DNA from: Cycloclasticus sp. symbiont of Poecilosclerida sp. M
GTDB lineage: Bacteria > Pseudomonadota > Gammaproteobacteria > Methylococcales > Cycloclasticaceae
Direction: 5' to 3'
DNA length: 35,093 nt
NCBI GenBank assembly: GCA_002101225.1
Contig: LWTN01000229.1
Span: 1-35,093, forward strand
The notes under the pieces were generated by a model. It was given only the letters and a program-made list of their open reading frames with translations. It did not search any database and was not told the origin of the DNA. The translations under genes were made by a program, and so were the position numbers. This document shows, in pieces, positions 4,749 to 35,093 of this stretch (position 1 is the stretch's first letter; every line of letters starts with the position of its first letter).

Positions 4749-6188
<1,440 letters not shown>

Positions 6189-26822: not shown

Positions 26823-27521
26823 TAACTAGCTATGACGCCTTTGGCAACCTGATTGAGACCGAAGACAGCCAAGGCAATATTATCTACACCCGTTACGATG
26901 CACGAGGCCGCAAGGTCGGCATGGACGACCCGGATATGGGTCAGTGGAGCTATGCCTATAACGTACTCGGTCAACTGGTCAACCAGACCGACGCGAAAGG
27001 CCAAACCTCAAGCTTAGTCTATGATTTACTGGGGCGCCTGATCAGCCGTACTGAAAGTGAGGGGACGAGCACTTGGCAATACGATAGCGCCCAATGGTGT
27101 TGGCAAACTGCATTTAGAGAACGGCACCGCCGCAGACGCTAAAGAATACAGCTATGACAGCTTAGGGCGTAACAGCGAGGTGACCACCGCCATCGATGGC
27201 ACCCTGTATCACCTCACTACGACCTACGATGCCTACTCACGCGCCGATACGATCACCTATCCTATCAGCACCCAATACCCCACCGGCCTAGTGATCCAAA
27301 ACAGCTATACCGATGCGGCTACTGATGGCTCTGAGGGGTATTTAAAAGCGGTTACTAACCCCATAGTCTTTACCGTGTACTGGCGGGCGATGAGCCAAAA
27401 CGCCGCAGGCCAACTGACCGAGGTAAAATTGGGTAACGGCATCACCAGCCAATATTTTTACGACGCCCAGACCAATTTAATTGAAAGCATCACAAGCGCC
27501 ACCCCAGGCGGTACCGGCTTG
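26823..27521 (+). pseudogene. RHS/YD-repeat protein fragment, frameshifted near 27090 and truncated at both ends
   Basis: YD repeats SYDAFGNLIETEDSQGNIIYTRYDARGRKVGMDDPDMGQWSYAYNVLGQLVNQTDAKGQ / GRLISRTESEGTSTWQYD then, in another frame, GVGKLHLENGTAADAKEYSYDSLGRNSEVTTAIDG. Confidence 0.88.
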
Positions 27522-27893
27522 CATCTGCTTATCAGGTTCTGTTTCAAAGCGAATGCTCGCTGGGGGAACCACATTACCGCGCAATTAAACCAAGTGCTCA
27601 CGCACTCGTGTGATACCGCCGTCATACCCATGCTCTTTAATCTCTCGAACAATGACAACAGCACTTAAATGAATAGGCAACGCCGATTCAATACGCCCTT
27701 TAATATAGGGCTTATAAGGATTAAGCTTATGGGCAACGCCCGGCCTTGGTTGATAGCTTGGCTTATCAATATCTCTAGATAAATGCTTGTTAACGGTGTT
27801 AGGAGAGACGCCTAATTGCTTCGCAATAGCGCGCTTTGAATGGCCTTGTTTGTGTAATATTTTAATGGTCATGAGTTCCTCTATTGAAATCAT
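27522..27893 (-). pseudogene. IS21-family IstA transposase remnant (N-terminal part, truncated and frameshifted)
   Basis: MISIEELMTIKILHKQGHSKRAIAKQLGVSPNTVNKHLSRD...; continues in another frame as RFETEPDKQMQ before abutting RHS sequence. Confidence 0.85.
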
Positions 27894-27944
27894 GATGTTC
27901 CTGTTTATAAAAAGCATCAGTGTGAGTCATGTGGCTCACTTTTC

Positions 27945-28601: not shown

Positions 28602-30362
28602 TTAAGTGCCAATAGTATTTTGGACATATGTATTGTGGAATTTTGCATAGGCCGAATTTTTCTTAATTAACTGCGTGTGAGTTCCCTGCTCAATAATTTC
28701 GCCCTGACTCATCACAAGAATTTCATCAGCATTTTCGATAGTCGATAAGCGATGTGCAATCACAATAGTCGTTCTACCTTGCATGGCGGTTTCAAGTGCG
28801 TCTTGGATTTTTCTCTCTGATTCCGAGTCAAGCGCTGAGGTGGCTTCATCCAAAATGAGAATAGGCGCATCTTTTAGTAAAGCGCGTGCGATCGCCAAAC
28901 GTTGCCGTTGGCCGCCAGAAAGCTTTAATCCATTTTCGCCGATAAGCGTGTCTAGGCCGTTTGGAAGTTGTTCGATGAACTCCATGGCATGAGCCTTTGT
29001 GGCGGCTTTAATAACATCTTTCCTTGAAAAAGAGCTGAGCGATCCGTATGCAATATTATGCTCAATGGTGTCGTTAAATAATGTGACGTGTTGAGTGACG
29101 AGAGAAATTTGTTCTCTTAAATTTGACAGCTCATATTCGGTTATATCAATACCATCAAGTAAAATTTGTCCTTCGCCATGTTGATAAAAACGAGTAATTA
29201 GGTTAGCTAGGGTCGTTTTACCACTCCCTGAATGCCCGACTAGGGCAAATGTTTTACCAGCAGACTGGCTGAAAGATATGTTTTTTAAAACAGCTTTATC
29301 TTCCTTGTCGTAAGCAAAGCAAAGGTTTTTAATTTCGAGATTGCCTGTGACACGCTTTACCTTGTGCCGACCAGTGTTTTTTTCAGCCTCAGCGTCCAAT
29401 ACGTCAAATATACTTTCTGCGGCAGCAATACCTTTTTGAATGGTTGCATTGACTTCACTTAATTGCCTAATAGGCTTAGGAATCATCCCAGCTGCGGTGA
29501 TGTAAGCAATAAAGTCGCCCGTAGAGGCGCCTTCCATTAGCAAAAGCGCTAAAAATATGAGCGTTGCTAGTGCCGCCGCCACAATAAGTTGCAATACGGG
29601 GGTTTGAATAGCGGATGTTTTCACCATACGCATGGACTGTAGAAAACTATATTCGCTAGCGGCTAAAAAGCGGCCTTTTTCGTAACCCTCACCACCAAAG
29701 CTCTTAACAACACGGTTCCCAGTGACCGATTCGGATGTAACATGCGTTAGGTCACCCATGGAGGTTTGAATTTTTTTACTGATACTATGGAATCGTTTAG
29801 TTGCTATTTTTACTACTAATCCAATTAAAGGCGCGATGGCAATAAAAATCAAAGAGAGGGCCCAATTCATATAAAACAAATAACCAAATAGGCCGAGGAC
29901 AGTAAAGCCTTCTCTGGCAATCACTTTTATAGCTTCTGTTGCAGCGCCCGTTACCATTCCGACGTTGTAAGTGATACGTGAAATTAAATGCCCCGAATTG
30001 TTATTATCAAAAAAGGGTATGGGTAAAACGGTGTACCGGTTAAAAAGTTGGCAACGTAGGGTGTGAACAATTTTATTAGAGACAAGGGCAATATAGTAGG
30101 TGCCAATAAACGATCCAATTCCACGATAGAAAACAATAGATACCAAACCGATAGGAATCCAAAAAATGGCGTCTCTTCGTTGCTCTTGTAAAGAGTCAAC
30201 CATGAATTTCATCATGTAAGCCACCATGGGTTGGCTGGAAGCAAAAATCAAAAACCCAATCAAGCTAAGCGAAAACAGAGCCATGTGCGGTTTAAGGTAC
30301 TGTAGAAGCCTTAAGTAAACTTTTAGACTGCTATCTTTTGTTGAAGCTGATTTAGTGTCCAA
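28602..30362 (-). CDS. msbA: Lipid A export ATP-binding/permease protein MsbA
   Basis: 586 aa ABC exporter; GHSGSGKTTLANLITRFYQ, LSGGQRQRLAIARALLKDAPILILDEATSALDSESE. Confidence 0.93.
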   Translation of the reverse strand: MDTKSASTKDSSLKVYLRLLQYLKPHMALFSLSLIGFLIFASSQPMVAYMMKFMVDSLQEQRRDAIFWIPIGLVSIVFYRGIGSFIGTYYIALVSNKIVHTLRCQLFNRYTVLPIPFFDNNNSGHLISRITYNVGMVTGAATEAIKVIAREGFTVLGLFGYLFYMNWALSLIFIAIAPLIGLVVKIATKRFHSISKKIQTSMGDLTHVTSESVTGNRVVKSFGGEGYEKGRFLAASEYSFLQSMRMVKTSAIQTPVLQLIVAAALATLIFLALLLMEGASTGDFIAYITAAGMIPKPIRQLSEVNATIQKGIAAAESIFDVLDAEAEKNTGRHKVKRVTGNLEIKNLCFAYDKEDKAVLKNISFSQSAGKTFALVGHSGSGKTTLANLITRFYQHGEGQILLDGIDITEYELSNLREQISLVTQHVTLFNDTIEHNIAYGSLSSFSRKDVIKAATKAHAMEFIEQLPNGLDTLIGENGLKLSGGQRQRLAIARALLKDAPILILDEATSALDSESERKIQDALETAMQGRTTIVIAHRLSTIENADEILVMSQGEIIEQGTHTQLIKKNSAYAKFHNTYVQNTIGT

Positions 30363-30492: not shown

Positions 30493-33387
30493 TCAGTCAT
30501 TTTCTAAGGCCTGATAATGTGCATATAATAACTTCAATTCAGGAATAACGGCATCGCTAGCGAGAGCCTCTGAGAACATAGATGATTTCTGCAGCAGTTC
30601 ATCTAAACCATCATTTAATTCAATAATATGCGTGCTAAATTTCTTCGCCATAACGAGAAAATACAAATAATGCATGGAGCGTATAAGCAATTGAGGGTTT
30701 GTTTGAGCTTGCCTAACAGCGGATAAAAGAGCCAATTGCAAAGATCGGGTGTACTTATCGAGCTCTAGTCGGCCATTGATATCTTTACACATGGCAGATA
30801 GCGCCTTTTTTTGACCATCTTCGTTGAAACGCAAGTCAGGCCACGGCCGCTCGATCATTTTACTACCAAATTTTTCTGCATATGCTTTTAGATAACACTA
30901 GGAAATACTTGAGGCGATGCGGTCACCAATAGGGCAGGCGTCACAATCTGCCATGGTGGTTATTGTCGGTAAAAGGGCGTTACGGATATCTTTTGCCGAA
31001 CGATCATAGGACGCGGCTTCTAATCCACGATAGCCGAAACCGGATAACAAAACGATGCGAGTAATTTCATTATAGTTGCCGACTTCGTCTAAAAACTTCC
31101 GCACTGCAGAAGGTTCAATAGGAACAGTTGTCCATGAAATAAAGGCAAGAACGTCCCCAACAATTGAAGAATTGTCGGTTTGCTGCCAGGTGTTTAGTAC
31201 CTGATCTGCAATTTTCTCAGTCACCATTTCATCACGCATAAGCTGACCTGCCATTCGGTAAATGACAGGGTTAAAGGCGGTTTCGCCAAAGTCGACGACA
31301 TTCCCGAGCGTTAAGCACTGTTTAAAATAAAGTGCAATTAGATAGTCGTGCCATTGTCGGTTAGAAAAGCGTATTTTGTTATGGCCCGTAGTAATAAATA
31401 AAGTACGTTGAATCAGGCCCGAGATAAAGTAATGTTCGTTTAGTAGTGAGAGCGCACCCCCCAAGCTTTTGTATTCTTCCTCTAAGGCGTGTTCTTTCAG
31501 ATAAAGCTTCCAATCATTTGCAATGACATTGGCTTCAGTTCTTATTTGATTTAAGCTTATTTCGCCTAAATTGTTTTTGAAAAAGGCCCACGCCATCAAC
31601 ATTAATGAGATCAGTAAATGCTCGCGGTTAAGAAGTGTTCCATCTTGCAACTTGGCATTTTCGAGTCGACTGCGCTTTAAGATTGAATCGATGGAGTGGC
31701 CGATAATGTCGGCGGCATTCAAGCTGCCGTTTTCTAGGTCTGGAGCCTCGTCTAATGAGGCCAAAATAAGGGGCGTTAGTACAATATCCATCAACTTTTG
31801 ATCCTTAATATAATTCAACCAAGTGCTGCAAATGGGAAAATGGCTTTTAGCTTCCTCAACGCTTAGGCGAGAGACTTCATAGGAATCCCTTTTTGAATTT
31901 ACGTATTTTTCTATCCCTGGCAAGCTGTTGCGGCAAACAGTTAAGATTGAAAACCTCTGATTGTTACGATATCGTTGGGTGGCCTCTCTAAAGAGTTTAA
32001 AACTTGGCTGCTGCTGACTTCATGCTGCAAGGCCAAAAATTCATCAAGGCCGTCGAATAGAATGCAGACAGCTTGTGTGTCAAAGCAAGAAATGGCTTTA
32101 GTTGAACGAAAGTAGCGATCAGGGAAAAGATCATTAACCCAGTTTTCGTGCCACTTCCATAAACTATCCCAGTCTAGCTCAGCGCCAAATTCTTGGCTAG
32201 ATGGCATTTGTAGAGGCATAGAAAAGGGGATAATTTTCTGTGGGCTGGGGTTCATCAAATAATCAAAAGACAGGCGCCAGATAAGTTCACGCATGACAGT
32301 TGATTTACCCGAGCCGCCATTACCGGTGAGTAAGAGTTGATGAGGAAAGTTTTATCACTGTTTAAGCGCGCATACATGAGGTCAAATACGCGTTGCTGGC
32401 TCTCAGAATTTGTTGGTTGTGTACTTGAATTTTGTGCGCCAGGTTCAGATCTCCCTATTAAAATTTGCGTACCTAGCTCCCGGTTTAAAGCATCTAGTTT
32501 CCGGGTGATAGCGTAGGCGTGCATCACGAGGTAATAGTTGGAGCCCGAATAATCCATCACTTGTGTGACGAGGATATCCATAATTGGACCATTGATATTG
32601 TCAGGTACTTTTACCGTATCGTGATTGCCGCGAAAGGTTACTTGGCGGGGCCCATTCGTATCAGTGGGGACGGCAACATCCGAGCCTGCAAGAATGTCGA
32701 AAGAGGCGGGGTAGGGTAATCTAAGTTCTTGCGATTTCGCGAGGGCACTTTCATTTTCTGTGTGCAAGGTTCGCAGCCAAGGGTTGTTATGTCGAAGCGA
32801 ATCGATGATTTCATTCTTACCCACATCCGCCGCCCCTTGCGTGAGAGTGCGGATTAATTTAAGAAAGGGCTTAGCGAGCAGATACACATATTTGTAAATT
32901 GATTGTCCAATTCTTGTTAAGGAGGGGTCGCCGCCATTATGTGGTACGGCAACATTAATAATACGGCGTGTTTTAAACCAAAGTGAGGGGCTTTCTGCAA
33001 AGCTAAAAGTATTGTTTTCTATTCCGTGGTTTATTTCATTGAAAGCGGTGTTGAGCATGTGTTTAACAACTAGCCCCCGTGCTATGGGTAATGAAAATTA
33101 TAAAATGGTAACGCTGATACGCAGTATCAAGGCAGGTGCGTAGGTCATCAGCGGCTTGAGGAATACTGGCTTTTTGCCATAAACCCGAGGCGCAAGAAAA
33201 ATTTAGAATATCAACGTTTGAACCGATGCGTTCAGAAAGCCATTCAGGGGGGCTCTTCCCATGTATCGGCTGGGCTGCCAAAGATGCCGTGTACGAAAAC
33301 CACCAGTAAATCTGAACGGTATTTTTTTGCGTCTTTATCGGCTTGATGAAAAAGGCCGTAACGAGTTTTCTGGTTCCAGAAGGCCAT
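30493..33387 (-). pseudogene. Decayed alpha/beta-hydrolase + NACHT/STAND-type NTPase (NLR-like) gene
   Basis: Conceptual product spans ATG 33387 (MAFWNQKTRYGLFHQADKDAKKYRSDLLVVFVHGIFGSPADTWEEPP), ORFs 33281-33063 (FITHSTG nucleophile elbow), 33058-32255, 32294-31941 (LLLTGNGGSGKSTVMREL Walker A; VCILFDGLDEF Walker B), 31923-30898 and, after an in-frame TAG, 30897-30493. Confidence 0.8.
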
Positions 33388-33460: not shown

Positions 33461-33757
33461 TTAGTTTCTTTGTTGGACGAGAATCCACGGTAAAACAATA
33501 ACGGACCAAAGTTCACTCTTCCCTTTTTGCCATAAAGCCGCTTCATTGGTAGAAACGCCCGCGACGAGGCCTTTCTTCATCCAGTTTTCGACGGTCAATT
33601 TGTTGTCATTCGAAATCTCCAGGGCGGCGTCTACAAGGTCAATATTTTTTGCAACGCGTAGCAAATTGCCTTTGGCAAAAAAGCGCTCTAAATCTTTCCA
33701 AGCGATTGCTGCAGTTTCGGCATGTAGCGCATGCCATTTCTCAGTTTTATTTCCCAT
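33461..33757 (-). CDS. DUF2288 family protein
   Basis: HAETAAIAWKDLERFFAKGNLLRVAKNIDLVDAALEISNDN...WSVIVLPWILVQ; typical DUF2288 pattern. Confidence 0.8.
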   Translation of the reverse strand: MGNKTEKWHALHAETAAIAWKDLERFFAKGNLLRVAKNIDLVDAALEISNDNKLTVENWMKKGLVAGVSTNEAALWQKGKSELWSVIVLPWILVQQRN

Positions 33758-34784: not shown

Positions 34785-35093
34785 CTTGGGTCATGACAAG
34801 TTAAGCGGCTCTTTTCTGAACATTTTGAGTAAAATATTGTATATATCTTGCTCTCGATTATTAAATCTAAACTCACACTCTTTAAGGTGCAAATTGAACA
34901 AACCTTTATCCATTCCTTTAAACTTCACCAGTCGTATTTTAGCATAGCCCCAAAACGACTCAATTCCATTGATATGGCTCGTGCCTCTAACAAACTCATT
35001 TTGGCTATGATGCACTCTAAAATGCTTCTTGTAACCAAAATCGACAAGTCCATTATAACCGCGCCAACCATCAGAATGAATAACGCTGTTGAT
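34785..35093 (-). mobile_element. IS1595-family-like insertion sequence, 3' end (truncated by window edge)
   Basis: Terminal inverted repeat cttgggtcatgacaagttaag (34785-34805) matches the inverse complement of 110-130; transposase C-terminus inside. Confidence 0.85.
34791..35093 (-). CDS. IS1595-like transposase, C-terminal part (partial)
   Basis: INSVIHSDGWRGYNGLVDFGYKKHFRVHHSQNEFVRGTSHINGIESFWGYAKIRLVKFKGMDKGLFNLHLKECEFRFNNREQDIYNILLKMFRKEPLNLS; DDE ISXO2-like C-terminus. Stop codon lies within the TIR. Confidence 0.88.
   Translation of the reverse strand: MNSVIHSDGWRGYNGLVDFGYKKHFRVHHSQNEFVRGTSHINGIESFWGYAKIRLVKFKGMDKGLFNLHLKECEFRFNNREQDIYNILLKMFRKEPLNLS

Follow-up and report, generated by a model that had tools for sequence, protein, structure and literature searches.

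Bacterial NACHT defence proteins carry the effector at the N-terminus and the sensor at the C-terminus (PMC12169576), and alpha/beta-hydrolases are predicted membrane-lipid effectors of bacterial conflict systems (PMC8195603). The THSTG motif defines the PlaB family, lipolytic family XVIII, which was described as confined to Legionellaceae (PMC6622161). DS-8, an enzyme–NACHT defence gene, was validated with a method directed at genes outside defence islands (PMC13092281). A locus of the Cycloclasticus sp. symbiont of Poecilosclerida sp. M was compared with these systems; the stretch analysed (35,093 nucleotides, LWTN01000229.1) is called the window below.

The window carries on its minus strand, at 30493–33387, a gene of about 960 codons that is broken by four frame changes (near 33.25, 33.07–33.10, 32.35 and 31.99 kb) and one in-frame TAG. 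The bounds given in an earlier note were confirmed (ATG at 33387, stop codon ending at 30493), and all the peptides quoted there were located on the minus strand, spread over three reading frames: LLVVFVHGIFGSPADTW, FITHSTG, FRGNHDTVKVPDN, LLLTGNGGSGKSTVMREL, VCILFDGLDEF and LTVCRNS. Search of the genome with the protein of an intact relative gave colinear pieces (query residues 1–50, 45–111, 99–338, 337–463 and 458–957 of 960), 64–70% identical to the intact homolog L001:8630–11512 with E from 5e-21 to 1.5e-231, far beyond chance; since the pieces are colinear and intact homologs exist, the proposal that the fragments join to one broken gene holds. The window gene is a recent pseudogene of a one-gene NLR-like protein.

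Pieces in the order of translation (all minus strand): piece 1, 33244–33387 (homolog residues 1–50; E 5.5e-21), holds the start codon and the oxyanion-type FVHGIFG motif; piece 2, 33063–33254 (residues 45–111; E 1.7e-24), the nucleophile elbow THSTG with Ser102; piece 3, 32354–33094 (residues 99–338; E 3.2e-102), the rest of the hydrolase and a linker, including the candidate acid Asp (GSD) and the catalytic His (RGNHDTVKVP); piece 4, 31983–32363 (residues 337–463; E 6.3e-54), the first half of the NTPase with Walker A GNGGSGKS and Walker B ILFDGLDE. Piece 5, 30901–32001, holds the second half of the NTPase (LTVCR arginine, VLTPLIL), the NACHT-associated IRFSNRQWHDYL motif and a helical region; the in-frame TAG at 30898–30900 divides the C-terminal region, and piece 6, 30496–30897, aligned to the homologs, supplies its last ca. 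134 codons, likewise helical (pieces 5 and 6 jointly, E 1.5e-231). Upstream, the DUF2288 gene (33461–33757, minus strand; Pfam DUF2288, E 9.9e-28) marks the conserved site; downstream, an msbA-like ABC exporter (28602–30362, minus strand; Pfam ABC_membrane/ABC_tran) stands in place of the hrpA of relatives and is outside the system. An ISXO2/IS1595-type transposase fragment at 34791–35093 runs off the contig end.

In an alignment of 13 intact homologs, oxyanion H33-G34, S102 (THS-S/T-GG elbow), D237 and H256 were invariant in 13/13, and the gathering score of Abhydrolase_6 was passed in one homolog (L052; 39.1 vs 26.3 bits). By these residues the N-terminal part is assigned as an alpha/beta-hydrolase domain with a conserved Ser-Asp-His set, in which D237 would be the acid residue. 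The hydrolase profile matched ABC-three-component hydrolases on conjugative plasmids (hhalign 99.3%, E 9e-21) over most of the hydrolase length, including the catalytic His; the PlaB phospholipase was matched as a PDB profile (E 1.6e-4) at residues 26–117 only, with the THSTGG elbows aligned. The domain is probably a SERAC1/SesB/PlaB-like serine hydrolase and a predicted phospholipid esterase with a putative lipid substrate.

Walker A GxxGxGK[ST] was found in 13/13 homologs and in the window piece; in the Walker B DG-x-D-E/D, D440, G441 and E/D444 were conserved in 13/13 and D443 in 12/13; downstream of it R481, T533-P534, R668, W674 and L678 were invariant in 13/13. Pfam NACHT gave E<=0.01 in 13/13, and its gathering score was passed by L056 only (34.9 vs 26.7 bits); the Cycloclasticus copies score below that threshold, as does the window fragment (piece 4; E 7.9e-4). 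An RF-(S/N/H)-(N/H)-R-x-W motif after the NTPase aligned with the antiphage NACHT protein HyoA (hhalign E 3.8e-4), and no Pfam family matched the C-terminal region. AlphaFold models of the L001 protein (4-row alignment; pLDDT 45.5) and of its C-terminal half (7-row alignment; pLDDT 55.7) were too poor for use, and PDB fold searches with both gave nothing at E<=0.001. The hydrolase, NACHT/STAND-type NTPase and helical C-terminus of the earlier note are thus upheld by the profile matches and by catalytic and Walker residues that are invariant in nearly all 13 homologs, and an NLR-like architecture is supported at the level of sequence. Two further NACHT sequences were noted. In the same assembly as the window, contig C177 (NACHT at 5684–6139; L106) holds a second NACHT domain (51 bits) followed by leucine-rich-repeat-like reading frames, resembling an animal NLR and possibly host DNA, in which case the bacterium would be an animal-associated one. 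In a related genome, the intact gene L108 (G006:C1:1531554–1535822) exceeds the HyoA cut-off (1613 vs 1200 bits), so the genus also carries a recognised NACHT defence gene.

Six related genomes, congeneric and with Cycloclasticus or Piscirickettsiaceae in their titles, carry intact copies of 958–970 aa. Scanning of genome contigs yielded 5 relatives with these titles, 4 of which encode an uninterrupted protein of 958–960 aa; in the fifth, a Bathymodiolus heckerae symbiont MAG (G004; L003 8635–11497), the homolog is split in two reading frames. Search of 18 same-family genomes added 2 intact copies and a 3' remnant (G002). The gene is present in 9/18 genomes of the genus, in one of these as a remnant only. 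Any match was obtained in 23/201 genomes of the order and 7/369 of the class, some in the hydrolase region only; full-length homologs outside the family, within the order and the class, were 31–49% identical, and no additional full-length homolog was found in a phylum sample of 399 genomes. No homolog was found in the phage records and viral contigs searched, and plasmid records gave matches in the hydrolase part only, with no full-length copy. The 13 intact homologs (several gammaproteobacterial families) have a common layout of alpha/beta-hydrolase, NACHT/STAND-type NTPase, NACHT-associated motif and helical C-terminus; those of 958–1028 aa show the tripartite arrangement in a single ORF, the C-terminus being the putative sensor.

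The gene order of the genus is asmA-mutY-YceI-hrpA-(OsmC)-NACHT gene-DUF2288-yedE pair with the NACHT gene variably present; where it is lacking, hrpA/OsmC and DUF2288/yedE flank an empty site. Two changes suffice for the non-carriers on a flanking-gene tree, and with the G002 remnant this makes loss from an ancestral state the simplest reading: the ancestor of the genus had the NACHT gene at this one fixed locus, and at least two losses followed. Besides these losses the genus shows one remnant and two broken copies. The genomes of the two broken copies (window and G004) may both be host-associated. The earlier placement of the gene between msbA and DUF2288 is correct for this genome and does not extend to relatives, where hrpA takes the place of msbA. 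In the window hrpA is absent from its place (26.6–30.4 kb), and it was not found elsewhere in this genome; the place is taken by msbA and by insertion debris at 27057–27917 (an RHS-repeat fragment overlapped by an HTH/transposase-like fragment), and asmA, mutY, YceI and DUF2288/yedE are kept despite the hrpA loss. The window locus is eroding: the NACHT gene is broken and hrpA is gone too. A split hrpA (two reading frames; L084 3217–7077) was observed in G009, a genome also without the NACHT gene.

Two candidate partners were dropped: DUF2288, found in 15/18 genomes of the genus, remains at the site without the NACHT gene, and an outer-membrane barrel gene, the upstream neighbour of four distant homologs (L052, L056, L057, L058), belongs to a family that 173/201 genomes of the order possess, whether they carry the NACHT gene or not. 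The search for intact homologs and defence islands suggested in the earlier note was fruitful in its first part; in the second, homologs beyond the genus adjoin unrelated housekeeping genes, and no defence genes were recognised in that part of the neighbours of homologs that was scanned. An integrase lies ca. 1.6 kb upstream of the L055 homolog.

The NACHT gene is under strong purifying selection. Between intact copies pN was 0.14–0.26 and pS about 0.74–0.85; synonymous sites are saturated, and for that reason no pairwise dN/dS value is given. The window copy (pN 0.20–0.27) is only slightly more divergent than the intact copies, which indicates that it was long under selection and broke recently. 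In pairs of carriers the identity of the NACHT gene is close to the hrpA value, G005 excepted (60–63% vs 69–74%). Within-genus conservation was 0.71 for the C-terminal part and 0.69 for the hydrolase, and gave no sign of a diversifying sensor in the C-terminal part.

The best explanation, which we consider probable, is an ATP-switched lipid hydrolase of stress- or phage-triggered abortive defence, recently inactivated here. The picture is drawn from the anatomy, the published bacterial NACHT proteins and the alpha/beta-hydrolase effectors. In the resting state the N-terminal serine hydrolase would be kept inactive by the central NACHT/STAND-type ATP switch; a trigger would be sensed by the helical C-terminal region; the switch would then exchange nucleotide and might oligomerise; and the clustered hydrolases would attack membrane lipids, with growth stop or cell death as the outcome. 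Abortive defence is the use held most likely, and the sensor would recognise something conserved. The antiphage or cell-suicide role proposed in the earlier note did not gain from the search, which found housekeeping neighbours, a conserved rather than fast-evolving protein and no phage or viral copies. Further points against a defence reading are that full-length plasmid copies and defence-island neighbours were not found, that the locus is fixed and ancestral with housekeeping-like conservation, that the C-terminus is conserved like the effector, unlike many fast-evolving sensors, that no member reaches the cut-off of any antiphage family and that no confident structure model was obtained. 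Missing island neighbours do not exclude defence, since DS-8, another enzyme–NACHT gene, was confirmed in a study not confined to islands (PMC13092281), and the defence role is plausible but unproven. As a tentative wider reading, held at somewhat less than an even chance, the homologs would form an island-free gammaproteobacterial NLR-like family in which the effector would be a membrane-lipid hydrolase and a conserved sensor at the C-terminus would respond to a conserved signal, internal or from phage; the family would be ancestral and slow-evolving in Cycloclasticus and repeatedly lost, possibly with host association.

Slow evolution and the fixed locus leave room for a housekeeping role. 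The same protein would then be a housekeeping or envelope-stress regulator and not an antiphage gene, its lipid esterase being switched by ATP to remodel the membrane on an internal signal. Strong constraint at rates like those of hrpA, the ancestral site, a C-terminus that is not diversifying, the absence of defence neighbours and the absence of the full-length protein from phages and plasmids all agree with it; the sporadic distribution (9/18, 23/201 and 7/369 genomes, with the remnant and hydrolase-only matches counted in) and repeated loss at an otherwise intact site do not, and dispensable genes with such an architecture would typically be conflict genes, so that we regard this reading as rather unlikely. 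Assignment of the central domain to another P-loop class (AAA+/ORC-like) was suggested by weak AAA_16, nSTAND5 and orc1/cdc6 matches and by Cdc6 as the best fold match of a low-confidence model (E 7e-3; Avs3 second). NACHT is the sole family with E<=0.01 in 13/13, with the gathering score passed in L056, and conservation extends to the DG-x-D-E/D Walker B, the TPLIL motif and the RFxxRxW/Q motif linked to NACHT; an AAA+/ORC-like domain is accordingly highly improbable.

As to the lesions, the gene could be intact in the organism and the interruptions be errors of sequencing or assembly close to the end of a contig: the assembly consists of 244 contigs, of which the window is one in full length, the gene lies ca. 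1.7 kb from the contig end, and its pieces are so strongly conserved that inactivation, if real, must be recent. Five lesions fall within 2.9 kb, whereas the remaining large ORFs of the window have no interruptions, which makes a general sequencing problem unlikely; hrpA has disappeared from this locus, where RHS and HTH/transposase debris is found, and G002 has the gene in decayed form or not at all, while in G004 it is split. Such errors are an improbable source of the lesions. Expression of the pieces as a split or frame-shifted functional system would fit the high conservation kept in every piece and is hardly credible, since the frame changes interrupt the hydrolase close to its nucleophile and the NTPase in its interior, away from domain borders, and recur in no intact homolog. 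Recent inactivation of a once functional hydrolase–NACHT gene is the reading retained. One locus in one genus offers a natural series of intact, split, remnant and empty sites for studying selection for and against such a gene, and the intact homologs, some 960 codons long and free of islands, lend themselves to easy testing.

Comparison with known systems: The bNACHT proteins (bNACHT25, PMC12169576; HyoA and EruA, NCBIfam) are alike in the single-gene tripartite layout and the NACHT-type NTPase, and the RF-H-R motif after the NTPase is common to the window-gene family and HyoA; the effector of bNACHT25 is a DNase (PMC12169576), whereas that of the window-gene family is a predicted lipase-type hydrolase, and the NCBIfam cut-offs of HyoA and EruA (1200 and 1000 bits) are far above the best scores obtained (25.9 and 21 bits, local matches only). 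PADLOC models gave weak matches only, none beyond the P-loop (best E 1.4e-4, to mad8). Avs (AVAST) proteins seem to be alike in STAND-class sensor-effector logic, and Avs3/Avs4 were among the best, non-significant fold matches of the models; the C-terminus of the window-gene family is much shorter, and no AVAST model was matched in PADLOC. The plasmid ABC-three-component hydrolase (as annotated in L050 and L107) has a domain homologous to the window-gene hydrolase and is encoded apart from, though adjacent to, an AAA ATPase and a middle component, whereas in the window-gene family the hydrolase is fused to the NACHT switch. PlaB (family XVIII, PMC6622161) has the same THSTG nucleophile motif; it is a free-standing enzyme (ca. 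490 aa), and the similarity is confined to the N-terminal ca. 90 residues of the window-gene family. Fungal SesB-type NACHT/NB-ARC NLRs (PMC4986451) are alike in layout, with a predicted lipase N-terminal to the NACHT switch; in contrast to them the window-gene family is without Pfam-recognised WD40/ANK/TPR repeats, is bacterial and is vertically inherited at one locus. As judged from these comparisons, the family lies outside HyoA, EruA and any PADLOC system found, appears to function like bacterial and fungal NLR-related proteins, and brings a putative lipase-type effector, paired as in fungal NLRs, to those bacterial NACHT proteins that can be recognised from sequence.
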